From: Candidatus Thioglobus sp.
Lineage (GTDB): Bacteria; Pseudomonadota; Gammaproteobacteria; PS1; Pseudothioglobaceae
DNA: 64,000 bases
Direction: 5' to 3'
Assembly (NCBI GenBank): GCA_028345055.1
Contig: JAOMCO010000007.1
Coordinates: 1 to 64,000 of the forward strand
Shown: in pieces, positions 51,212 to 61,609 of the stretch
How positions within the stretch are numbered: the first letter of the stretch is position 1
How the letters are laid out: each line of letters opens with the position of its first letter
Notes under the pieces: model-generated
What the model was told of the DNA's origin: nothing
What the model saw: only the letters and a program-made list of their open reading frames with translations
Databases searched by the model: none
Program-made: the position numbers and the translations under genes

Positions 51212-52246
51212 CTAACTTAGTAAGTCAAATGCATCACCCCAACAATCTGCAACTTTATAACCTAAAGGGTACGGATCACTCGGATCAACTCCAATTTGAT
51301 GAACTCCATGAATCCACCCTCGACCAGAAACTCTTGGAGTTATTCCAGATTTACCAGCAATAGTTTTTTTCTCTAGTATTTCTACTTTGAACTCGCTATC
51401 TATTATTGATCTAGCAATAAAACTCTGGCCAACTTCAGCCTGACCTTTTGCCTCCATTACTGCTAGACGCGCAGAATTACCAGTTCCACAGGGAGAACGA
51501 TCAATTCGACCAGGTGGGAGGATTGTTGCTCCCTTCATAACTCCATCACTATCATGACCAACAAACATTGTATATGAAATACCTTTTAAACCTTTAATCT
51601 GTGGATGTTTTATATCAACCTGATTATTGATGGCCCTATGAACTTTAGTCCCAATATCAACGAGTTTTCGAGCATTTTCAGGCAAGATTTTTAAGTTGAA
51701 TTGTGATGGATCAATTAATGCATAAAAAATACCTCCAAAGGCTATATCAACTATAACTTCTCCAAGCCCTTCAACTTCAATAATTGTATCAAGCTGGTCA
51801 GCATATGATGGAGTCATATCTAATGTCACTCGTTCACATTTTCCATTTTTACAACTAGCAACAGCTCGAACCAGTCCTGCTGGCGTATCTAGTGTTACAA
51901 CCGTTTTAGGTTCTATCATCTTAATCCTTCCAGTTTCGAGCAAAACAGTAACTAAACAAATACTATTTGAACCAGACATTGCATGTGCCTTATCACCTTG
52001 TAGAATTAAAAAACCTATATCAGCTTCTTTATGAATAGGCTCAAAAATTAGATTTGTTGACATCTGTGCATATCCACGGGGCTCAAACACCAAAAAACGT
52101 CGTAAACTATCATCAACTTGATTTATATAGTTCATTTTTTCTAGCATAGTCTTGCCAGGAATATCATTGGCAACACTAGTAACTATTCGTCCAACCTCAC
52201 CCTCTGCATGAGCCTCCACCATCGTTATAGTTTTTTTCCAGTGCAT
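51212..52246 (-). CDS. Proline racemase superfamily protein B (hydroxyproline epimerase or dehydratase), Ser/Cys type
   Basis: The 344-aa protein has the proline racemase fold motifs AHAEGEVGRIV at the start, MSGSNSIC near residue 90 and [12 protein letters not shown] near 250. In the classical racemase two cysteines act as the base pair; here the first is Ser91 while Cys253 is kept. Ser/Cys members are known in the superfamily, as are Thr/Cys trans-3-hydroxy-L-proline dehydratases. So activity could be 4-hydroxyproline 2-epimerisation, 3-hydroxyproline epimerisation or dehydration. It has a paralogue directly upstream (27-base gap) that shares the same replacement. Confidence 0.82.
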   Translation of the reverse strand: MHWKKTITMVEAHAEGEVGRIVTSVANDIPGKTMLEKMNYINQVDDSLRRFLVFEPRGYAQMSTNLIFEPIHKEADIGFLILQGDKAHAMSGSNSICLVTVLLETGRIKMIEPKTVVTLDTPAGLVRAVASCKNGKCERVTLDMTPSYADQLDTIIEVEGLGEVIVDIAFGGIFYALIDPSQFNLKILPENARKLVDIGTKVHRAINNQVDIKHPQIKGLKGISYTMFVGHDSDGVMKGATILPPGRIDRSPCGTGNSARLAVMEAKGQAEVGQSFIARSIIDSEFKVEILEKKTIAGKSGITPRVSGRGWIHGVHQIGVDPSDPYPLGYKVADCWGDAFDLLS

Positions 52247-52273
52247 TATTTCAAAATCTTAATTAAATGAACT

Positions 52274-53305
52274 TCATTGCTTTATTGGCCATGTATCTGA
52301 AAGACGATATCCATCTGGCCATGGATCTTCGGGGTCGAGCATTAATTGGTGAGTCCCAGTAATCCATGCCCTTCCACGAATTGAAGGGATAATAGCTTTC
52401 TTGTCACCCACCATAGTCTCATCAACTATGCTGCAGTCAAAACGGGAATTAATAATCGAACGACCTATCATCCGATCGCCTTTTTTTAGCTCTCCTTTTG
52501 CATAGAGAAGTGCCATCCGAGCAGAGCATCCAGTGCCACAAGGAGAGCGGTCTAATTTTCCAGGATCAATTACAACAGTATTTTTACTAATTTTAATGCC
52601 CTCCTCTTCAAATATAGGGAGTGTCATTTGGCAAAAAGAAATATGACTCCATTCAGAATTAGTTGGATGGGTAAAATTTAATTGCTGATTTGCAGCTGCG
52701 GTTATTTTTGAACCAATATCAGATATATCTTTAGCTTCATCAGGTTTAATTTCAAATCCAAGATCTTGCGCATTAATAAATACAAAACTATCCCCACCAT
52801 AGGCAGTGTCTACTTTGAGAGTACCTAATCCTTCAACTTCAATACTAATATTAAGCTGATCTGCAAAAGAGGCTACGTTATTGACCTCTATACTTTTAGC
52901 TTTTCCATCTTCACAGTATGCCTTAACTGGAACAAGTCCCCCAGGAGCCTCAAGAATAAATTCTGTTATTGGCTCATTCATCTCAATCAAACCAGTATCA
53001 AGCAAAACAGTCGAAACACAAATGGAGTTAGAGCCAGACATTGGTGGAGTATGTTCCGGCTCCATAACAATAAAACCTTGTTGAGCCTTTGGATTTTGGG
53101 CTGGTACTAGAAGATTTATGTGTTTAAAAACGCCTCCCCTTGGCTCATTTAAAACAAATTGCCTTAATTTTTGATCTTGGTCAATCCACCTAGCCTTCTC
53201 CCAGAGGCTATCTCCTTTTGGCGCCGCAACACCTCCAATAATTACATTGCCTACTTCACCCTCTGCATGGCATGAGACAATATGAATCAACTTATTGCTA
53301 TTCAT
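52274..53305 (-). CDS. Proline racemase superfamily protein A (hydroxyproline epimerase or dehydratase), Ser/Cys type
   Basis: A 343-aa paralogue of the following gene. Motifs are [11 protein letters not shown] at the start, [12 protein letters not shown] (Ser90 in the first catalytic position) and [12 protein letters not shown] (Cys256). The remainder also aligns by eye, including [18 protein letters not shown] and [24 protein letters not shown] at the end. The start codon overlaps the aldehyde dehydrogenase stop by one base (TAATG). Which of the two paralogues is the 4-hydroxyproline 2-epimerase cannot be told from sequence alone; retaining both suggests different substrates, such as 4- and 3-hydroxyproline. 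Confidence 0.82.
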
Positions 53306-54813
53306 TAAATATCTTCACTAATATCAATCCAAAGCGTTTTAGTTTCAGTATATTGATCATGCGCCATGAGTGAATTATCACGACCCCCAAAACCTGATAA
53401 TTTGTAACCTCCAAATGGAGTTGATATATCTCCCTCACCATAACAATTGACTGATACAGTTCCAGCCTGAAGAGCACGACCATATTTATGGGCCTTAGTA
53501 ACACTCGAAGTAAATAAAGAGGCTTGAAGTCCATAAGAGGTATCATTTGCAAGCTTAATGGCGTCTTCATCAGTCTCTACAACCATCATAGCAAATACAG
53601 GACCAAAAATTTCCTCCTTAGCAATGACCATATCTGAATTAACACCTGAAAATAATGTCGGCTCAATAAATAAACCATCACCTGAAGCAATTGAGTTACC
53701 GCCAGCAATAACTTCAGCGCCCTGCTCTTTAGCACTTTCAATATAACTTAAAATCTTATCATACTGCTCACGTGAAATAATCGCTCCAAGTTGATTTTCT
53801 GGATCCAATGGGTCACCGGTATGCCAGTCTGCCATTTTTTCCTTAACCTTTGAAAGCATCTTATCTTTAAGATTTTTATGAACAATTAATCTTGAATTAG
53901 CAGTACAATTCTGACCCATATTCCAAAGAGCCGCAAATACTGCATGCTCTGCAACACCATCTAGATTAGTAGCATCTGAAAGCACTACTGCAGGATTTTT
54001 TCCACCACATTCAAGTATAATTTTTTTCAAATTGCTTTGTCCAGAGAACTCTAGGAATAGCCTTCCAACCTCAGTAGAACCCGTAAAAGAAATCGCATCA
54101 ATGTCATGGTGACGACCCATTGGCTCTCCTACATCTGGACCCTCTCCTGGAAGCACGTTCAAAACGCCTGCAGGAATTCCTGCTTCACTAGCAAGCTCTG
54201 CAACACGCAGAGCTGTCATTGAGGTCTGTTCAGCTGGTTTAACTATAACACTATTCCCTCCAGCCAATGCTGGAGCAATTTTCCATGCTAACATCATCAG
54301 AGGAAAGTTCCAAGGCAGTACGCAACCCACGACACCTAATGGTTCACGAGTAATTAAACCTACTGCATCTGCATTTGCAGGAGAAACCTGATCATAAATC
54401 TTGTCTATAGCCTCAGCATGCCACTTAATAGTAACAATTGTTTCTGGAAGGTCAGTTAGCACGCACTCGCTAATTGGTTTTCCACTCTCTAAACTTTCAA
54501 GAACTGCAAGCTCTAATTGATTTTTCTCTATAAGTTCTGCTAACTTCAGCAACAACTCCTTTCGCTCGCTCGGATGTTTAGTAGACCACTCACCAGAATT
54601 AAATGCTTCTCTGGATACTTCTACAGCATAATCAACATCCTTATTATCACAGGCAGATACATTGGCTAAAACTGAGCCATCTGCAGGATTAATAGTTTCC
54701 ATAGTATTTCCAGCTTTTGTTTTTTGAAACTTACCATTTATAAAAGGATCAATTGGAAATTTTATTTTTGCAGCAATATCTGCATATTCATCTTTACTAA
54801 GAAGATCTGACAT
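53305..54813 (-). CDS. Aldehyde dehydrogenase, probably 2-oxoglutarate semialdehyde dehydrogenase
   Basis: The 502-aa NAD(P)-dependent aldehyde dehydrogenase has the [18 protein letters not shown] motif, FTGSTEVG cofactor loop, general base E268 (ILECGGKNP) and nucleophile C303 ([10 protein letters not shown]). EEIFGPVFA and the C-terminal [11 protein letters not shown] are typical. Sequence style is closest to the broad betaine/gamma-glutamyl-aminobutyraldehyde group. Position between the DapA-like gene and the two racemase-family genes makes 2-oxoglutarate semialdehyde, the last intermediate of hydroxyproline breakdown, the best guess. It starts 13 bases after the DapA-like gene. Confidence 0.85.
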
Positions 54814-54826
54814 TTATATACTCCTG

Positions 54827-55726
54827 TTAATTTAAAATTGAATGAAGTGAGGATCGAGTCTTATCTATAACTCCAATCATTTCCTTTCGAAGTGAGTCCT
54901 CAATAGGAAGTAATGGGAGCCTAACTTTTCCGGAAGGACGACCTTGCTGCTCACATCCTAATTTAACACATTGTAAAAACTTACCGCCCTGCTCTAAAGC
55001 CTTCATGAGAGGCATAAATGCAGCCATAAGGCGCCTTCCCTTTTCAAAGTCAGACTGCTTTCCTAGTATATCCATTAACTGGACACACTCTGATGGAAAG
55101 AAATTTGCTGTTGCACAAACCCAGGACTTTGCCCCCCAGGCTGCAAATTCAAGCACTTGTTCTTCTCCACCAACTGCAAGCTCAATTGAAGAATAGTTAT
55201 TAGACAGTAAAGGTAATCTAGAGTAATCACCACTAGACTCTTTGATAGCAGCAATCAAAGGATTATTGGCGACAATATCTAAAAAGTTTTCACCCATCTC
55301 AACTCCTGTTCTTCCAGGATAGTTATAAAGCATTATAGGTAAATCAGTTTTATTAGCTATCTCAAGCACGTGGTTAGCCAGCTCTTCTTCTGATGGCAAT
55401 GAATAAGGAGGAGCAGCTACTAAAAGTGATTTGGCTCCTGCATCAACTGCAGCTGATGAGATTTGTAGACATTCATCAACTCTAATATCATTTACTCCCG
55501 CCATAAATTCGACTCTACTGTTTATTCGCTCAGCTGCAAACTCAAATTGCTGAATTCGCTCCTCTTTAGAAAGAGCATAAAATTCTCCAGTTGAACCACC
55601 AACAATAATTCCAGCAACCCCATTCTCAATTTGCCAATCAATAACCTCTGCGTACATATCCCAATCAATTTCACCACTATCCATGAAAGGGGTAATAATA
55701 GGCGTATAAATTCCTTCAAATCTCAT
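54827..55726 (-). CDS. DapA-family lyase, probably pyrroline-4-hydroxy-2-carboxylate deaminase
   Basis: The 299-aa class I aldolase-fold protein has the family residues GGSTGE (43-48), Y136 in LYNYPGRTG and the Schiff-base lysine K162 in AAIKESSGD. It leads the minus-strand operon after a 228-base control region. Family members include dihydrodipicolinate synthase and the hydroxyproline-pathway deaminase; the operon partners favour the latter, giving 2-oxoglutarate semialdehyde plus ammonia. A lysine-biosynthetic role is less likely because no lysine genes are nearby. Confidence 0.82.
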   Translation of the reverse strand: MRFEGIYTPIITPFMDSGEIDWDMYAEVIDWQIENGVAGIIVGGSTGEFYALSKEERIQQFEFAAERINSRVEFMAGVNDIRVDECLQISSAAVDAGAKSLLVAAPPYSLPSEEELANHVLEIANKTDLPIMLYNYPGRTGVEMGENFLDIVANNPLIAAIKESSGDYSRLPLLSNNYSSIELAVGGEEQVLEFAAWGAKSWVCATANFFPSECVQLMDILGKQSDFEKGRRLMAAFMPLMKALEQGGKFLQCVKLGCEQQGRPSGKVRLPLLPIEDSLRKEMIGVIDKTRSSLHSILN

Positions 55727-55954: not shown

Positions 55955-56770
55955 ATGAAGATGTTTTCTAAAACATTAGTGTCGCTTTTTGCAGCAGTAG
56001 TTATGCTCACTGGATCGTCAACTGCTTTTGCAGATAAGCTAGATGATGTAATTGATGCAGGTGTCTTAAGATGTGGAGTAGTTCTTGATTTTCCACCTAT
56101 TGGATATCGAGATGCAAATAATGAGCCAGCAGGTTTTGATGTTGAATACTGTAAAGACCTTGCAGCAGCTCTAGAAGTTGATTATGAAATTATTGCTGTG
56201 ACTTGGGCTGAACGCCTTCCATTAATTGTTACTAATCGTGGTGATGTTGTTTTTGGAGGTACTTCTGATACTCTATCCCGTGCTAAGACAGTTGGCTTTA
56301 CAATACCTTATGCAATTTATTATGCTCAGGCAGTTGTTGGTGCTGATAGTGGTATTGTTACTGTTGAAGATATGTACGATAAAAAAGTTGCTGCAGCTGT
56401 AGGAACTGTCCCTGAACAGGAATGGCTAAAAATTGCTGAAGAACTAGGAATTGAAGGCAATTATCAAGGCTATCAATCTGAGAATGAAGTGTTCTTAGCA
56501 GTAGCTCAAGGTAAAGCTCATGCAGGTATAACAACTAACACAACGGTATTGCCAATTACTCAGCAGTTTGATACGGTTATCGCTGGTCCACGTATGCCAT
56601 GGGGCACTGACTATACTTCTGTAGTCGGTCCACGTATGGATGTTACTTGGCTAAACTATCTTAACCTTTTTGTAACGCAGCAAGTTCGTTCTGGTCGTTA
56701 TCAAGAGCTTTGGGGTAAGTTTGTTGGTGGCGAAGCACCTGAATTACGCATTCCTGGTGTTTACTACTAA
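55955..56770 (+). CDS. ABC transporter substrate-binding protein (polar amino acid family)
   Basis: The 271-aa periplasmic protein has a signal peptide (cut likely after SSTAFA). The SBP_bac_3 domain starts DVIDAGVLRCGVVLDFPPIGYRD, then has GFDVEYCKDLAAAL and the GDVVFGGTSDTLSRAKTVGFTIPY segment that lines the amino acid pocket. A strong AGGAG ribosome-binding site lies ahead of the ATG. It leads the plus-strand operon and faces the hydroxyproline-type catabolic operon, so hydroxyproline or a related imino acid is the likely ligand. It is followed by a strong hairpin before the permease genes. Confidence 0.9.
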   Translation: MKMFSKTLVSLFAAVVMLTGSSTAFADKLDDVIDAGVLRCGVVLDFPPIGYRDANNEPAGFDVEYCKDLAAALEVDYEIIAVTWAERLPLIVTNRGDVVFGGTSDTLSRAKTVGFTIPYAIYYAQAVVGADSGIVTVEDMYDKKVAAAVGTVPEQEWLKIAEELGIEGNYQGYQSENEVFLAVAQGKAHAGITTNTTVLPITQQFDTVIAGPRMPWGTDYTSVVGPRMDVTWLNYLNLFVTQQVRSGRYQELWGKFVGGEAPELRIPGVYY

Positions 56771-56784
56771 TAGTTAATTTCTAT

Positions 56785-56812
56785 ATGGCCGGCTTGCCGG
56801 CCATTTTTTTTT
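56785..56812 (+). terminator. Terminator/attenuator between the binding-protein and permease genes
   Basis: ATGGCCGGC and GCCGGCCAT form a perfect 9-bp stem with a 2-base apical gap, then nine T. It lies 14 bases after the binding-protein stop. In ABC operons such hairpins raise binding-protein mRNA over the permeases by partial termination or 3'-end protection; that role is inferred here. Confidence 0.88.
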
Positions 56813-56821
56813 AAATCATTT

Positions 56822-57481
56822 ATGGATTATAACTTCCATTGGAGACCAGTATTTAAATCTCTCCCTGATCTCTTAGAGTCAGCATTATTAACGTTGGAGG
56901 TCGCAATCCTTTCGATGATATTAGGTATATTATTTGGTCTTGCACTCTCTCTAATTAGAATTAAAATGACAGGGCCTTTAAAATGGTTTGCTGTCTCATG
57001 GATTGAGCTTGCTCGAAATACACCAGCCCTATTACAATTATTTTTCTTTGGCTTTGGACTTGGTGCATTTGGTATTCACTTTAGTCCTTTTCTTATTGTA
57101 TTATTAGGCTTAACCTTTAACAACTCAGGCTACTTAGCTGAAAACTTTCGAGGTGGATTTAATTCTATTCCAGAGACCCAAATTAGAGCTTCTCTGAGCC
57201 TAGGAATGAATAGCTTCCAAACCTACACAAGAATAATAATTCCACAAGTCTTAAGGGTTGTATATCACCCAATGACTAATCAAATGGTTTGGGCTGTTTT
57301 AATGTCTTCTTTAGGGATGCTAGTTGGCTTCCGTGAACTCTCAGGTGAAACTCAATTTTTTGCATCTAAAACATATCGTATTTTTGAGTATTTTGCTGCA
57401 ACTGCAATAATTTACTACGTGATAGTCAAAATTATTCTTGGTCTTTCAAGATTAATGGCTTCACGACTATTTAAGTATTAG
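56822..57481 (+). CDS. Amino acid ABC transporter permease 1 (HisM/GlnP family)
   Basis: The 219-aa inner-membrane protein has about five helices. The N-terminus has SLPDLLESALLTLEVAILSMILG. The family signature region SWIELARNTPALLQLFFFGFGLGAFG is followed by the EAA-like loop (ETQIRASLSLGMNSFQTYTRIIIPQVLRVV) that docks on the ATPase. No clear ribosome-binding site precedes the ATG, which lies 9 bases after the T run of the terminator. It pairs with the next permease gene. Confidence 0.88.
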   Translation: MDYNFHWRPVFKSLPDLLESALLTLEVAILSMILGILFGLALSLIRIKMTGPLKWFAVSWIELARNTPALLQLFFFGFGLGAFGIHFSPFLIVLLGLTFNNSGYLAENFRGGFNSIPETQIRASLSLGMNSFQTYTRIIIPQVLRVVYHPMTNQMVWAVLMSSLGMLVGFRELSGETQFFASKTYRIFEYFAATAIIYYVIVKIILGLSRLMASRLFKY

Positions 57482-57491
57482 GAGAATCTTT

Positions 57492-58151
57492 ATGGAATCA
57501 GCTTCTACATACTTTTCAGGATTTAATATTAATGATTTATTGTATCTTGGTGAAGCTGCCTTAAGAACTCTATGGATCTCATTCTGGGCTATCAGTATTG
57601 GATCTTTTATTGGAATTTTTTTAGGATTAGCACTTAGCATTTCTAGGGTTATAGCATATACACTTGGGGCAGTTTTAGATGTATTTCGGTCTGTTCCACT
57701 AATTATTCAGCTAGTATTATTTTTTAATTTTGCCCCTATTATTGGTCTCAGACTTAACCCATTTGAAGCTGGCTTAATTGTACTTATTGTCTATACTTCA
57801 GCTTATGTTGCCAATGTTGCAAGAGGAGGAATTGAAGCTGTTGGAGACCCGATGAGAAGAGCTGCAAGAAGCTTAGGAATGACTTATTGGCAAGATTTAC
57901 GTTATGTTGTATGGCCAATTGGACTTCGTGCTGTATTTCCTGCTTGGGTGGGAGTTGCTTTAGGAGTTCTAAAGGATAGTGCATTGGTTTCAATACTTGG
58001 ATATATTGAGCTTTTAAAAGCTTCTCAAATACTTATGACTCGAACACAAGAGGCAATCTTAATATTATCAATTGCTGGTGCATTCTATTTTGCTTTATCT
58101 TATCCAATTTCTTATTATGCAACTCGACTTGAACAAAGGTGGTCTGAATGA
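57492..58151 (+). CDS. Amino acid ABC transporter permease 2 (HisQ family)
   Basis: The 219-aa partner permease has LYLGEAALRTLWISFWAISIG at the N-terminus, the VFRSVPLIIQLVLFFNFAPIIG signature, and the EAA loop DPMRRAARSLGMTYWQDLRYVVWPIGLRAV. The start follows an AGGAG ribosome-binding site 10 bases after permease 1, and the stop overlaps the ATPase start by 4 bases. Confidence 0.88.
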   Translation: MESASTYFSGFNINDLLYLGEAALRTLWISFWAISIGSFIGIFLGLALSISRVIAYTLGAVLDVFRSVPLIIQLVLFFNFAPIIGLRLNPFEAGLIVLIVYTSAYVANVARGGIEAVGDPMRRAARSLGMTYWQDLRYVVWPIGLRAVFPAWVGVALGVLKDSALVSILGYIELLKASQILMTRTQEAILILSIAGAFYFALSYPISYYATRLEQRWSE

Positions 58152-58873
58152 TTAAAATTACAAACCTACATAAACAATATGGTGAACTTGAAGTCTTAAA
58201 GGGTATTGACCTTGACGTTCCAAAAGGAGAAGTGTTAAGTGTTATAGGATCTTCCGGCTCAGGAAAATCAACATTACTATATTGTATTAATGGCCTGGAG
58301 CCAATCCAAAAAGGTCAAATTATTGTAGATGATATTGATGTTCATGCTAGTGATACAAACCTTAACTCAGTTCGCCAAAATATGGGAATGGTTTTTCAAC
58401 AGTGGAATAGCTTTCCTCATTTAACAGTTCTTGAAAATGTAGCGCTAGCACCAAAAATCGTTAGTAAACTTTCAAAGAAAGAAGCGCTAGAAGTTGCAGA
58501 AAAACAACTGCTTCATGTTGGACTTGGAGATAAACTTACTCAATATCCCTCTGCACTTTCAGGTGGGCAGCAGCAGCGTCTAGCTATTGCTCGAGCTTTG
58601 GCAATGGAACCAAAATGTATGCTGTTTGATGAAGCCACATCTGCTCTAGACCCTGAACTTGTTGGGGAAGTTCTTGATACAATTAGACTTTTAGCTGATG
58701 AGGGTATGACTATGATTTGTGTTACTCATGAGATGGGATTTGCTAGAGAAGTTTCTGATAGAGTGGCTTTTTTTCATGAAGGTAAAATTGAAGAAATTAA
58801 CCAACCAGAAGAATTATTTGGCTCTGCTAAATCTAAGTATTTACAAAAATTTCTATCAAAAGTTAAAACATAG
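58148..58873 (+). CDS. Amino acid ABC transporter ATP-binding protein
   Basis: The 241-aa ATPase has Walker A GSSGSGKST, a Q-loop in MVFQQWNSFPHLTVLENV, signature LSGGQQQRLAIARALA, Walker B CMLFDEATSALDPE and the H-loop MICVTHEMGFARE, as in GlnQ/HisP. It overlaps permease 2 by 4 bases (ATGA) and precedes the aconitase X gene by 29 bases. Confidence 0.93.
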   Translation: MIKITNLHKQYGELEVLKGIDLDVPKGEVLSVIGSSGSGKSTLLYCINGLEPIQKGQIIVDDIDVHASDTNLNSVRQNMGMVFQQWNSFPHLTVLENVALAPKIVSKLSKKEALEVAEKQLLHVGLGDKLTQYPSALSGGQQQRLAIARALAMEPKCMLFDEATSALDPELVGEVLDTIRLLADEGMTMICVTHEMGFAREVSDRVAFFHEGKIEEINQPEELFGSAKSKYLQKFLSKVKT

Positions 58874-58902
58874 GGCTATTAACTACTTACTGGAGTTTAG
58901 CT

Positions 58903-60603
58903 ATGGGAAAACTTTCAAATAATGAAGCCATTATCTTTGTACAAAATAATGTGGAAGGTGATATTGTAGTTTGTGATGAAGGGGTTAGTTTCTGGGGGGG
59001 TGTTGATCCTGACTCAGGAATAATTATTGATATTCATCATCCTAATTGTGGAGAGCAGCTTTCTGGAAAAATTGTACTTATGCCAACTTCTCGTGGCTCA
59101 TGCAGTGGAAGTGGGGTATTACTGCAGCTTGCGCAAAATGGAAATGCACCAGCCGCACTTATATTTAGAGAAAATGAAGAGATCTTAACTCTTGGAGCTA
59201 TGATTGCTGAAAGACTCTTTAACAAAAAAATTGCTATATTACGTCTTAAGCCTAACATTTATAATTTATTATCTTTAGAGAAATCTGCAAAAATTGATAA
59301 TCTCAAATTATATTTCTCAAGTATCTTAATTAATTTATATCAGCCTGATTTAAGTAGAATTTACTTGAATAATTCAGATAAAAAAATGTTGGCTGGCAAT
59401 CATGGTAAAGCCACAAAAATTGCAATGGAAATATTATGTTTGATGGCTGCTTCTCAAAATGCAGATAAATTAATCGATGTTTCTAGAGGTCATATTGATG
59501 GTTGTATTTTGGCACATGATGCTAATCTCAATTTTGCAGAAAAAATGCTTGATATGGGCGCGCGTGTTATTATTCCAACTACAATTAATGCAATTTCAGT
59601 AGATAGGGATAATTGGAAGTCGCAAGCTGTTGCTCCTGAACTGGGTGATAAAGCTAGCCGACTTGCTGATGCATATGTCAAAATGGGTGCTCATCCTACA
59701 TTTACATGTGCGCCTTATCTTTTAAGTGAAAAACCAACTAAAGATGAAGTTATTGGATGGTCTGAGTCAAATGCTGTTATTTATGCAAATTCTGTAATTG
59801 GAGCTCGAACTCAGAAGCATCCAGATTATTTAGATTTGTTCATAGCCATGACTGGGCGAACTCCAAATACTGGTGTTTATTTAGAAGAGAATCGAAAGCC
59901 TAGCTGCGAAATTAGAATATCGTTACCTTTGAAATTTGATGAGTCTATTTGGCCAATGATAGGTTGGTTGGCTGGCTATAAATCACCAAATGGAATTCCA
60001 GTGTTAATTGGTCTTGAAGATATTTCACTGAGTAATGATGATTTAAAAGCTTTATGTGCAGCATTTGGTACAACATCTGCATCTCCAATGTTGCATATTA
60101 AAGGGCATACACCAGAAGGTGAGCTCTCGAGCACTCAAGATGCTATTACTTCAACTATAAGGCCCAATGATTTATTAAATTTGTGGCAACAATTCAATTC
60201 TGGCAATAACAAGATAGATCTAGTTGCTATTGGGAGTCCACATGCATCTCCTGCTGAGTGTATGAAGTTTTTGAAATTGTTATTGGAAAAAAATCAAACT
60301 GTTGTTATTCCAACTATTTTGACTGTTGGGCGAGAAACTCTTACAAAATTAAGAGATCATGGGAATTTAAATCAACTTTCCAAATTAGGAGTTCAAATTA
60401 TTCCTGATATTTGTTGGTGCTCAATAACTGAACCAGTTTTTCCCTCAAAGACACAATCATTAATTACTAATTCTGGTAAATACGCTCACTATGGTGAGGG
60501 TTTGACTGGGCGAAATATACGGTTTGGAAGTTTAAGCGACTGTGCGATCGCTGCTTTAACTGGTTTTGTTAATGATGAGCCTCCTAATTGGATGAATTCC
60601 TAG
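58903..60603 (+). CDS. Fused aconitase X, probable cis-3-hydroxy-L-proline dehydratase
   Basis: The 566-aa protein joins the small AcnX domain (DUF126, residues about 1-140, with GVDPDSGIIID, HHPNCGEQLSGKIVLMPTSR and GSCSGSGVLLQLA) to the large one (DUF521, about 160-560, with GNHGKATKIAMEIL, SRGHIDGC, MGAHPTFTCAPYL, ANSVIGARTQ and HASPAECMKFL). Candidate Fe-S ligand cysteines are in these motifs. Characterised bacterial AcnX enzymes dehydrate cis-3-hydroxy-L-proline to pyrroline-2-carboxylate; archaeal relatives act on phosphomevalonate. The operon with an amino acid importer opposite hydroxyproline genes favours the first. The start has GGAG 10 bases ahead. No pyrroline-2-carboxylate reductase is in the window. 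Confidence 0.85.
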   Translation: MGKLSNNEAIIFVQNNVEGDIVVCDEGVSFWGGVDPDSGIIIDIHHPNCGEQLSGKIVLMPTSRGSCSGSGVLLQLAQNGNAPAALIFRENEEILTLGAMIAERLFNKKIAILRLKPNIYNLLSLEKSAKIDNLKLYFSSILINLYQPDLSRIYLNNSDKKMLAGNHGKATKIAMEILCLMAASQNADKLIDVSRGHIDGCILAHDANLNFAEKMLDMGARVIIPTTINAISVDRDNWKSQAVAPELGDKASRLADAYVKMGAHPTFTCAPYLLSEKPTKDEVIGWSESNAVIYANSVIGARTQKHPDYLDLFIAMTGRTPNTGVYLEENRKPSCEIRISLPLKFDESIWPMIGWLAGYKSPNGIPVLIGLEDISLSNDDLKALCAAFGTTSASPMLHIKGHTPEGELSSTQDAITSTIRPNDLLNLWQQFNSGNNKIDLVAIGSPHASPAECMKFLKLLLEKNQTVVIPTILTVGRETLTKLRDHGNLNQLSKLGVQIIPDICWCSITEPVFPSKTQSLITNSGKYAHYGEGLTGRNIRFGSLSDCAIAALTGFVNDEPPNWMNS

Positions 60604-60628
60604 ACTTAAAATGTTATTTGAAATCTGA

Positions 60629-60766
60629 AAGATCTATATTAAGCTAAATGATATATCAAGTGGTGCTCCAACTCGAGTGAATGGCAAGATGACTGCTTCA
60701 AACCTTCCAGAACTTGGGATTGAACCAAACTTTGATATGCTTGGAGATACAGTTCTTTCTTTTTAA
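60629..60766 (+). pseudogene. C-terminal remnant of an enolase-superfamily (mandelate racemase/MLE-like) protein
   Basis: After an in-frame TGA at 60626, an open frame of 45 codons without a credible start ends in TAA at 60764-60766. Its residues include [28 protein letters not shown] and the ending DTVLSF. This matches the extreme C-terminus of enolase-superfamily enzymes (pattern NG..T.P..PGLGIE.D...LG.PV). The barrel with all catalytic residues is gone. It lies 25 bases after aconitase X. Confidence 0.65.
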
Positions 60767-60781
60767 AAAAATTATTAATCT

Positions 60782-61609
60782 CTAATTTAATTTTCCAAAA
60801 AATGTCATTCTAGCTGATTCAGATAGCTGGACACCTGGACTTGAATTGTATGCTAAGACTGATAATATTCTAGTCTTACGCCCAATGGTTGGAGTGACGC
60901 GATGAATAGCATCCTTCCCTCTAAAAAGAACCAGTGATCCATTTTCCATAGCGAGTTTTTTTGGTTGGCTTTGCCCATTAATCAAGTCCAAAACTTGATC
61001 ATAGTTATTGTCATTATTTTTTGAGTTTCTGAAATCTCTTATATATTCAAATTCACCTCCTGCCTCAGGCTTCTGTATAAGCAAGGTGATTGCAAAAGAT
61101 GAGTTATCAAAGTGCCAACCAAGCTCCTGTCCCTCATTTGCATAATGAATGTTGATTGAAGATAGGTTGTCATAATATTTATAAAGCGCCTTCTCGTTAA
61201 GAACTGAACAAAGAAAATCTTTAAACTCTTCTGAATCATAAAGAGTTCTTAATGGTGAGAGAATAGGCACTTGATTATCGGTAATACAGCCCTTTGAAGA
61301 AACCACTGTTCTATTGCGTGCATGATTTAATGGGTATGATTTATCTAAAGGTTCTAAATAAACATTATGATTGTTGATGCAGTAATATGCATGATGTTCT
61401 TGATCAATTGCTTCAGATAATATCGACTCAATAGCACTAGAGTGAAGAAAATCTTTGAGAACTAAAACACCCTCTAATTCAAGAATTTTTTTGCATTCTA
61501 ATCTATAACTTTCATTTTCAATTGGATGCTTTAAATCATCAATCACACTAGATAATTTAATTGGAATTTTATTTGCACTATTAGTCATGACAAAGTTAAT
61601 TATATACAT
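60782..61609 (-). CDS. Predicted Fe(II)/2-oxoglutarate-dependent oxygenase of unknown substrate
   Basis: The 275-aa protein has a double-stranded beta-helix pattern. The iron triad appears as H166-x-D168 (GWHFDNSSFAITLL) and H236 (DAIHRVTP), with R244 or R247 for 2-oxoglutarate. The GGEFEYIRDFR stretch after the first strand pair recalls a family containing amino acid hydroxylases and halogenases; the intact Asp argues for hydroxylation. A second ATG at 61588 is an alternative start; neither has a ribosome-binding site I can see. It is divergent from the RoxA gene with 73 bases between, and its stop is 15 bases from the enolase remnant. Substrate not known. Confidence 0.75.
   Translation of the reverse strand: MYIINFVMTNSANKIPIKLSSVIDDLKHPIENESYRLECKKILELEGVLVLKDFLHSSAIESILSEAIDQEHHAYYCINNHNVYLEPLDKSYPLNHARNRTVVSSKGCITDNQVPILSPLRTLYDSEEFKDFLCSVLNEKALYKYYDNLSSINIHYANEGQELGWHFDNSSFAITLLIQKPEAGGEFEYIRDFRNSKNNDNNYDQVLDLINGQSQPKKLAMENGSLVLFRGKDAIHRVTPTIGRKTRILSVLAYNSSPGVQLSESARMTFFGKLN

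Follow-up and report, generated by a model that had tools for sequence, protein, structure and literature searches.

Non-orthologous displacement of one enzyme by another is usually inferred from patchy distributions, with its steps guessed. The question raised by the present locus is whether a short, unannotated frame lying behind a gene can be read as the remains of such a displacement and, if so, what it tells of the order and manner of events. The window, a stretch of 64,000 nucleotides, belongs to a genome of Candidatus Pseudothioglobus (SUP05 cluster, Gammaproteobacteria), here called G000, whose assembly is a 74% complete MAG of 1.31 Mb in 54 contigs. Within it an orphan frame of 45 codons (60629-60763, its stop codon ending at 60766) starts 25 bases past the stop codon of an aconitase X gene at 60603. 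The sequence-only reading of this DNA had taken the frame for the ending of an MLE-type enzyme of the enolase superfamily, and suggested that it records the swap of one non-homologous dehydratase for another. Our comparison covered 28 other Pseudothioglobus species (29 genomes with that of the window) and 54 further members of the family, mostly MAGs; a contig end interrupts G012, and G020 is incomplete. No literature on hydroxyproline use in Pseudothioglobus or Thioglobus was found. The features of the locus are collected in Table 1.

Table 1. Features at and around the short frame (positions in the window)
Feature	Position	Strand	Basis
Two proline-racemase-family genes (trans-3-hydroxyproline dehydratase / hydroxyproline epimerase types)	51212..53305	-	PF05544
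Aldehyde dehydrogenase (53305-54813) and DHDPS-family lyase (54827-55726)	53305..55726	-	Role from context
Polar-amino-acid-type ABC transporter	55955..58151	+	Binding protein 55955-56770; permeases 56822-57481, 57492-58151
ABC transporter ATPase, left flank	58148..58873	+	91-100% amino-acid identity, same place in G003, G002, G010, G028, G032
Leader between ATPase stop and aconitase X start	58874..58902	+	Sequence comparison; ~29 bases
Aconitase X	58903..60603	+	NF051439, 831 bits; PDB 7CNP/7CNQ; ligand and catalytic residues; dN/dS
3' tail of aconitase X block, fused to remnant; opens the 45-codon frame	60604..60649	+	Common to G003, G010, G020, G002, L115
Enolase-type dehydratase remnant	60650..60766	+	74% identity to intact G028 gene; NF043002 match; profile match
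Convergent Fe(II)/2-oxoglutarate (2OG) oxygenase-like gene, right flank	60782..61609	-	PF23169, E=2e-17; PF13640 just under its cut-off

Identity of the short frame

The enolase-type portion of the frame is 38 codons long and begins at about 60650. It matches NF043002 alone (E=1.2e-9; 37.6 bits against a cut-off of 500; profile positions 328-365 of 366), the NCBIfam equivalog for the cis-3-hydroxyproline dehydratase of enolase type, so that the profile comparison points to this particular dehydratase and not merely to the superfamily. The 45 amino acids gave no match in a Pfam search, since MR_MLE_C ends about where the remnant begins. When a profile was built from genes outside the genus, the remnant was the single significant match among 1579 six-frame segments of the window, with E=2e-11 when G032 was included and 5e-10 when it was not, the next best segment standing at E ~1-2. 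Comparison by tblastn of the intact G028 gene with the window yielded 62 bits (E=5e-13) over the 38 codons, a figure that may be compared to 20.8 bits for the best of 500 codon-shuffled copies. The identity of 74% to the G028 gene contrasts with 37-50% to paralogues.

An origin from a paralogue of about 40% identity, carried by G001, G010, G019 and other congeners, was considered and rejected: the remnant is 37-45% identical to it, against 71-75% to the enolase gene belonging to this site or its remnants in G003 and G012. Intact copies of this paralogue in other species score 346-356 bits, under the NF043002 cut-off. In the window genome its counterpart, about 40% identical to the enolase dehydratase (L075:8864-9968, on G000:C34), is split over two frames, reflecting a frameshift, a pseudogene or a sequencing error.

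The first seven codons of the frame, KIYIKLN (60629-60649), are not of enolase origin, since the same tail trails aconitase X in G002 and L115 (a MAG contig binned as Rhodospirillales), where no remnant is seen behind the first ~45 tail bases. What the sequence-only reading had said of the frame, its position and its enolase C-terminus is thus borne out, with the exception of these seven codons. The remnant starts at enolase codon 329, past all the catalytic lysines and metal ligands, and retains no active-site residue; to judge from its residues it is a fossil and not a working enzyme. A terminator that could explain its being kept was sought in vain, and phage records gave no match.

It is highly improbable that the frame is instead a chance open frame or a working small protein gene. 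Its 45 open codons and an open frame of equal length in G020 are what such a reading can call upon, but the frame is broken in both G003 and G010, the G003 and G020 remnants show no third-position excess (see below), and the profile match and the recurrence of the same sequence at the same position in relatives refute a chance origin.

Two enzymes with one predicted activity

The aconitase X of the window holds PF01989 and PF04412 within one chain of 566 amino acids, and its closest structures are PDB 7CNP/7CNQ (E ~1e-189). The cluster cysteines and catalytic residues of the family have been described for the Agrobacterium tumefaciens enzyme (PMC8184944), and by comparison with that enzyme the [2Fe-2S] ligands C269, C504 and C506 are kept, together with S66, C67, D199, E288, S289, K526 and Y530, of which S66, D199, E288, K526 and Y530 are catalytic; T72 of AtAcnX corresponds to S68. 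The intact enolase of G028 scores 714 bits on NF043002 and aligns end-to-end with its best solved structure, PDB 4MGG (E=2e-207); the K163-type KxK motif region, D193, E218, D241 and K265 are present by motif position. Values of dN/dS are low for both genes, ~0.15-0.2 for aconitase X and ~0.03 for the enolase (G028-G032), and each working gene is therefore kept by selection where it is intact.

According to Watanabe et al. (2016, PMC5144071, where Zhang et al. 2015 is cited for the enolase enzyme of Labrenzia aggregata), the two types of dehydratase are evolutionarily unrelated, Labrenzia having one type 'instead of' the other. The earlier statement that aconitase X performs the same reaction by an unrelated fold holds at the level of predicted activity: NF051439, the equivalog for the aconitase X type of cis-3-hydroxyproline dehydratase activity, is matched with 831 bits against a cut-off of 700. 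Both intact enzymes pass the NCBIfam equivalog cut-offs for the same activity, and both would be expected to dehydrate cis-3-hydroxy-L-proline to pyrroline-2-carboxylate in vivo.

Among the neighbouring genes, the aldehyde dehydrogenase and the DHDPS-family lyase are, from their context, candidates for 4-hydroxyproline breakdown. The former, which in the window and other congeners lies between the racemase-family and DHDPS-family genes, is absent from G028 (L069:7721-7733). A Pfam match to HalD (halogenase D) is seen for the 2OG-oxygenase-like protein, which however carries HFD at a place where halogenases are without the acid; it therefore reads as a hydroxylase, and may act on a free amino acid.

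The same site in relatives

A full enolase-superfamily gene stands at this position in two relatives. In G028, a single-contig genome of the same genus, the binding protein, two permeases and ATPase are followed after 11 bp by an intact enolase gene of 367 amino acids, then by an Ldh2-family gene and the convergent 2OG gene, and two proline-racemase-family genes lie 4 kb upstream, placed as in the window. In G032, from another genus of the family, the order is ATPase, intact enolase gene and convergent 2OG gene, with no Ldh2 gene. Neither of these intact loci contains aconitase X. In G012, whose contig begins inside the gene, the last 35 enolase codons (86% identical to G028) adjoin the 2OG gene.

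The Ldh2-family gene beside the G028 enolase (L069:12907-13914) encodes a possible pyrroline-2-carboxylate reductase. Five congeners (L099, L100, L102, L103 and L104) have a gene 82-88% identical to it, in divergent orientation next to a gene of trans-3-hydroxyproline-dehydratase type; the 64 kb window has no Ldh2-family gene of this kind.

In the window genome, and likewise in G003, G010 and G020, the order is aconitase X, remnant and 2OG gene. The 3' end of the 2OG gene abuts the remnant in these four genomes and the enolase gene in G032, and so fixes the site in relatives. The G010 remnant is longer and frameshifted, with codons 316-335 in one frame and 339-367 in another, and this piece, as its sequence reads, is a second stage of decay. 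In G002 aconitase X lies behind the same ATPase, the contig past the tail being other DNA and the 2OG gene being elsewhere. In G009 it stands alone at another place, followed by an aldo-keto reductase gene. In that same assembly rpoB is read in three frames (G009:C4:424370-428418), which suggests frameshift errors.

That the junction in the window is an artefact of a chimeric contig is scarcely credible. A MAG of 54 contigs and 74% completeness might invite the suspicion, but the succession of aconitase X, tail, remnant and 2OG gene occurs in four separate assemblies, three of them with the same junction.

Direction and co-occurrence

A search with aconitase X against the enolase loci of G028, G032 and G012 found no trace of it, the best match (E=0.19) falling in an unrelated stretch. 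Since these loci are free of aconitase X, and the enolase remnant lies behind aconitase X in the others, the enolase came first at this site and aconitase X later.

The carriers of aconitase X are without an intact gene of NF043002 type, and G028, G012 and G032 are without aconitase X; among the 29 Pseudothioglobus genomes and 54 further family members, none has both aconitase X and an intact enolase gene. This bears upon a turnover in two steps, in which aconitase X would have settled beside an intact enolase gene, both would have worked for a while and the redundant enolase would later have been deleted. Such is the usual model of non-orthologous displacement, redundancy being held to be required for essential genes (PMC2964296), and further deletion clearly did happen in the G000/G003/G020 lineage. 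We nevertheless regard it as a possible but doubtful account here, given the lack of any genome with both intact genes in that sample and the position of aconitase X, which lies directly behind the ATPase in the 5' place of the enolase, so that each lineage would have had to lose ~950 bases of the 5' end in a separate deletion.

Movement of aconitase X between lineages

Divergence was assessed through dS along the locus. For aconitase X it is 0.20 between G000 and G003, and 0.17-0.26 among the tested pairs of G000, G003, G010 and G002. The transporter genes, by comparison, yield 0.6-2.2 between G000/G003 and G010/G002 (0.9-2.2 for G000-G010), and for G000-G010 the genes from racemase to lyase yield 1.2-1.6, while the 2OG gene is saturated. 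Sliding identity between G000 and G010 reaches 88-98% within aconitase X and drops on both sides of the block, to 74-88% across the ATPase gene and to 64-79% past the other end. A tree based on RpoB and XerC together with two neighbouring proteins divides the carriers between two clades (G002, G009 and G010; G000 and G003) separated by non-carriers, and in the aconitase X tree G009 lies outside G010, followed by G002 and then by G000/G020/G003. The low aconitase X dS relative to the flanks and the mismatch of the trees together indicate transfer of aconitase X from lineage to lineage.

Beyond Pseudothioglobus, the closest aconitase X sequences are found in L115 (92%), in alphaproteobacterium HTCC2255 (80%) and in a Rhodobacteraceae bin (78%), and most further matches are from marine Rhodobacteraceae; an alphaproteobacterial source is likely on this evidence. 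As to L115, the contig could have been a recent recipient in its own right, or could have been binned wrongly. It is 8 kb long (L115:1-8034) and carries an aconitase X with a dS of 0.07 from that of G009, a tail typical of the genus, a small secreted-protein gene and a repeat, a pattern that reflects either recent transfer across classes or misbinning.

The aconitase X tail of G010 and G002 enters a ~46 bp repeat (L066:11733-11780; end of L065; L231-L250) containing the inverted repeat TTGGACT-AA-AGTCCAA. All 29 Pseudothioglobus genomes contain matches to it, 2-31 per genome; these frequently lie in clusters and point the same way, and frequently a gene for a small secreted protein (ATGAAAAAACTA...) follows closely. 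The repeat may aid recombination. Because the tail runs into a repeat found in all these genomes, an integron-cassette route was weighed for aconitase X. It was rejected in view of the many repeat copies just upstream of small secreted-protein genes and of the lack of an integron integrase: in the 29 genomes TIGR02249 gave sub-cut-off matches only (at most 78 bits against 265), mainly to two frames per genome, of ~295 and 305-340 amino acids, which we read as XerC/XerD.

Recurrence

In the codons that can be aligned, 14 sites distinguish the G000 remnant from that of G010, and 12 of the 14 are third positions (p=8e-5); the two enolase alleles therefore diverged under selection, before each was cut. 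The G003 and G020 remnants, which split later, show 8, 3 and 2 differences by codon position and hence no third-position excess. These comparisons favour at least two displacements, in lineages with different enolase alleles, although 14 differences carry the case for recurrence and part of the pattern could also arise if the flanks recombined repeatedly.

A single displacement in one ancestor, the locus then being inherited and decaying to different lengths in each lineage, is unlikely by our assessment. It would account for the left junction and first 45 tail bases common to the ATPase-side aconitase X loci, and the right junction of G000/G003/G020 is derivable by deletion from a longer one like that of G010. 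However, the G000-G010 dS of ~0.2 for aconitase X is far under that of both flanks (~1 or more), the carriers do not form one clade, and the G000 and G010 remnants differ in the manner of selected genes and not of a shared pseudogene.

Junctions and mode of replacement

The left junction, consisting of the ATPase stop codon and the ~29-base leader, is the same wherever aconitase X lies beside the ATPase (G000, G002, G003 and G010), the leader replacing the short enolase leader of G028/G032. Three right junctions are seen, at enolase codon 316 (G010), at codon 329 (G000, G003 and G020) and in unrelated DNA (G002). Third-position divergence in the ATPase gene falls towards aconitase X from 0.38 to 0.0 for G010-G002, which agrees with a role of the ATPase end as homology arm; for G000-G010 the gradient is weak (0.50 to 0.23) and the boundary sharp, so that such an arm shows as a clear gradient in the G010-G002 pair alone. 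The ATPase gene is a probable homology arm. At the right end the junctions lie at different points and were formed without homology. Homology on the left combined with illegitimate joining on the right is what homology-facilitated illegitimate recombination would leave, a mechanism put forward to explain how T6SS effectors in Vibrio displaced one another in series (PMC5361080).

In such a process the 3' portion of the ATPase gene would have provided the pairing site for the incoming DNA, the right end of which would have been joined illegitimately within or beyond the enolase gene, a single step both delivering aconitase X and destroying its predecessor. This would have taken place in at least two lineages holding different enolase alleles, and the remnant would then have decayed without selection. 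An unrelated gene of the same predicted function occupies the same site in relatives, with the direction known, and we consider it very probable that the locus represents an in situ non-orthologous displacement of the enolase by aconitase X, which was probably recurrent and would have come about through one-step homology-facilitated illegitimate recombination. The swap proposed from the sequence alone is supported by the intact enolase gene at the site in G028 and G032 and by the specific profile match; beyond it, replacement was apparently recurrent, and aconitase X spread as a block of its own. With modest confidence we lean towards a broader picture in which an aconitase X block of ~1.8 kb sweeps Pseudothioglobus and lands repeatedly behind the same ATPase gene, each time truncating and replacing the enolase in one step with no redundant intermediate.

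Significance and comparison with known systems

The phenomenon is known, but is here unusually well resolved and likely to be recurrent and one-step in mode. Among near relatives one can see the old gene, the new gene, the junctions and the remains at two stages of decay, as well as the direction, and the order of events is therefore testable. A short unannotated frame can in this way date and orient an enzyme replacement, and the case bears on whether coexistence of the two enzymes is a necessary stage of such a swap. A physiological question is posed as well, namely why an ocean bacterium should trade a Mg-dependent enzyme for an iron-sulfur one. A possible reason lies in the side reaction of the enolase type, which also epimerises its substrate, aconitase X being reported without such activity (PMC5144071).

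The closest parallel is the alternation of LhpI and LhpJ (PMC5144071), which involves the same two unrelated enzymes, each in hydroxyproline gene clusters, with LhpJ present in Labrenzia 'instead of' LhpI. There the contrast is between distant genera, whereas here it is found within one genus and at one site, with remains of the old gene and a direction. Phosphoglycerate mutases (PMC2964296) similarly present non-homologous isofunctional enzymes that swap by lateral transfer and loss; in their case this was inferred from patchy distribution, with redundancy first for essential genes, while the present junctions point to an in-place swap that involved no stage of redundancy. The displacement of T6SS effectors in Vibrio cholerae (PMC5361080) shares the conserved upstream anchor, the variable downstream end and the 3' remains of the displaced gene, but concerns rapidly evolving effector-immunity modules, unlike the present replacement of a metabolic enzyme by an unrelated one with the same predicted reaction.
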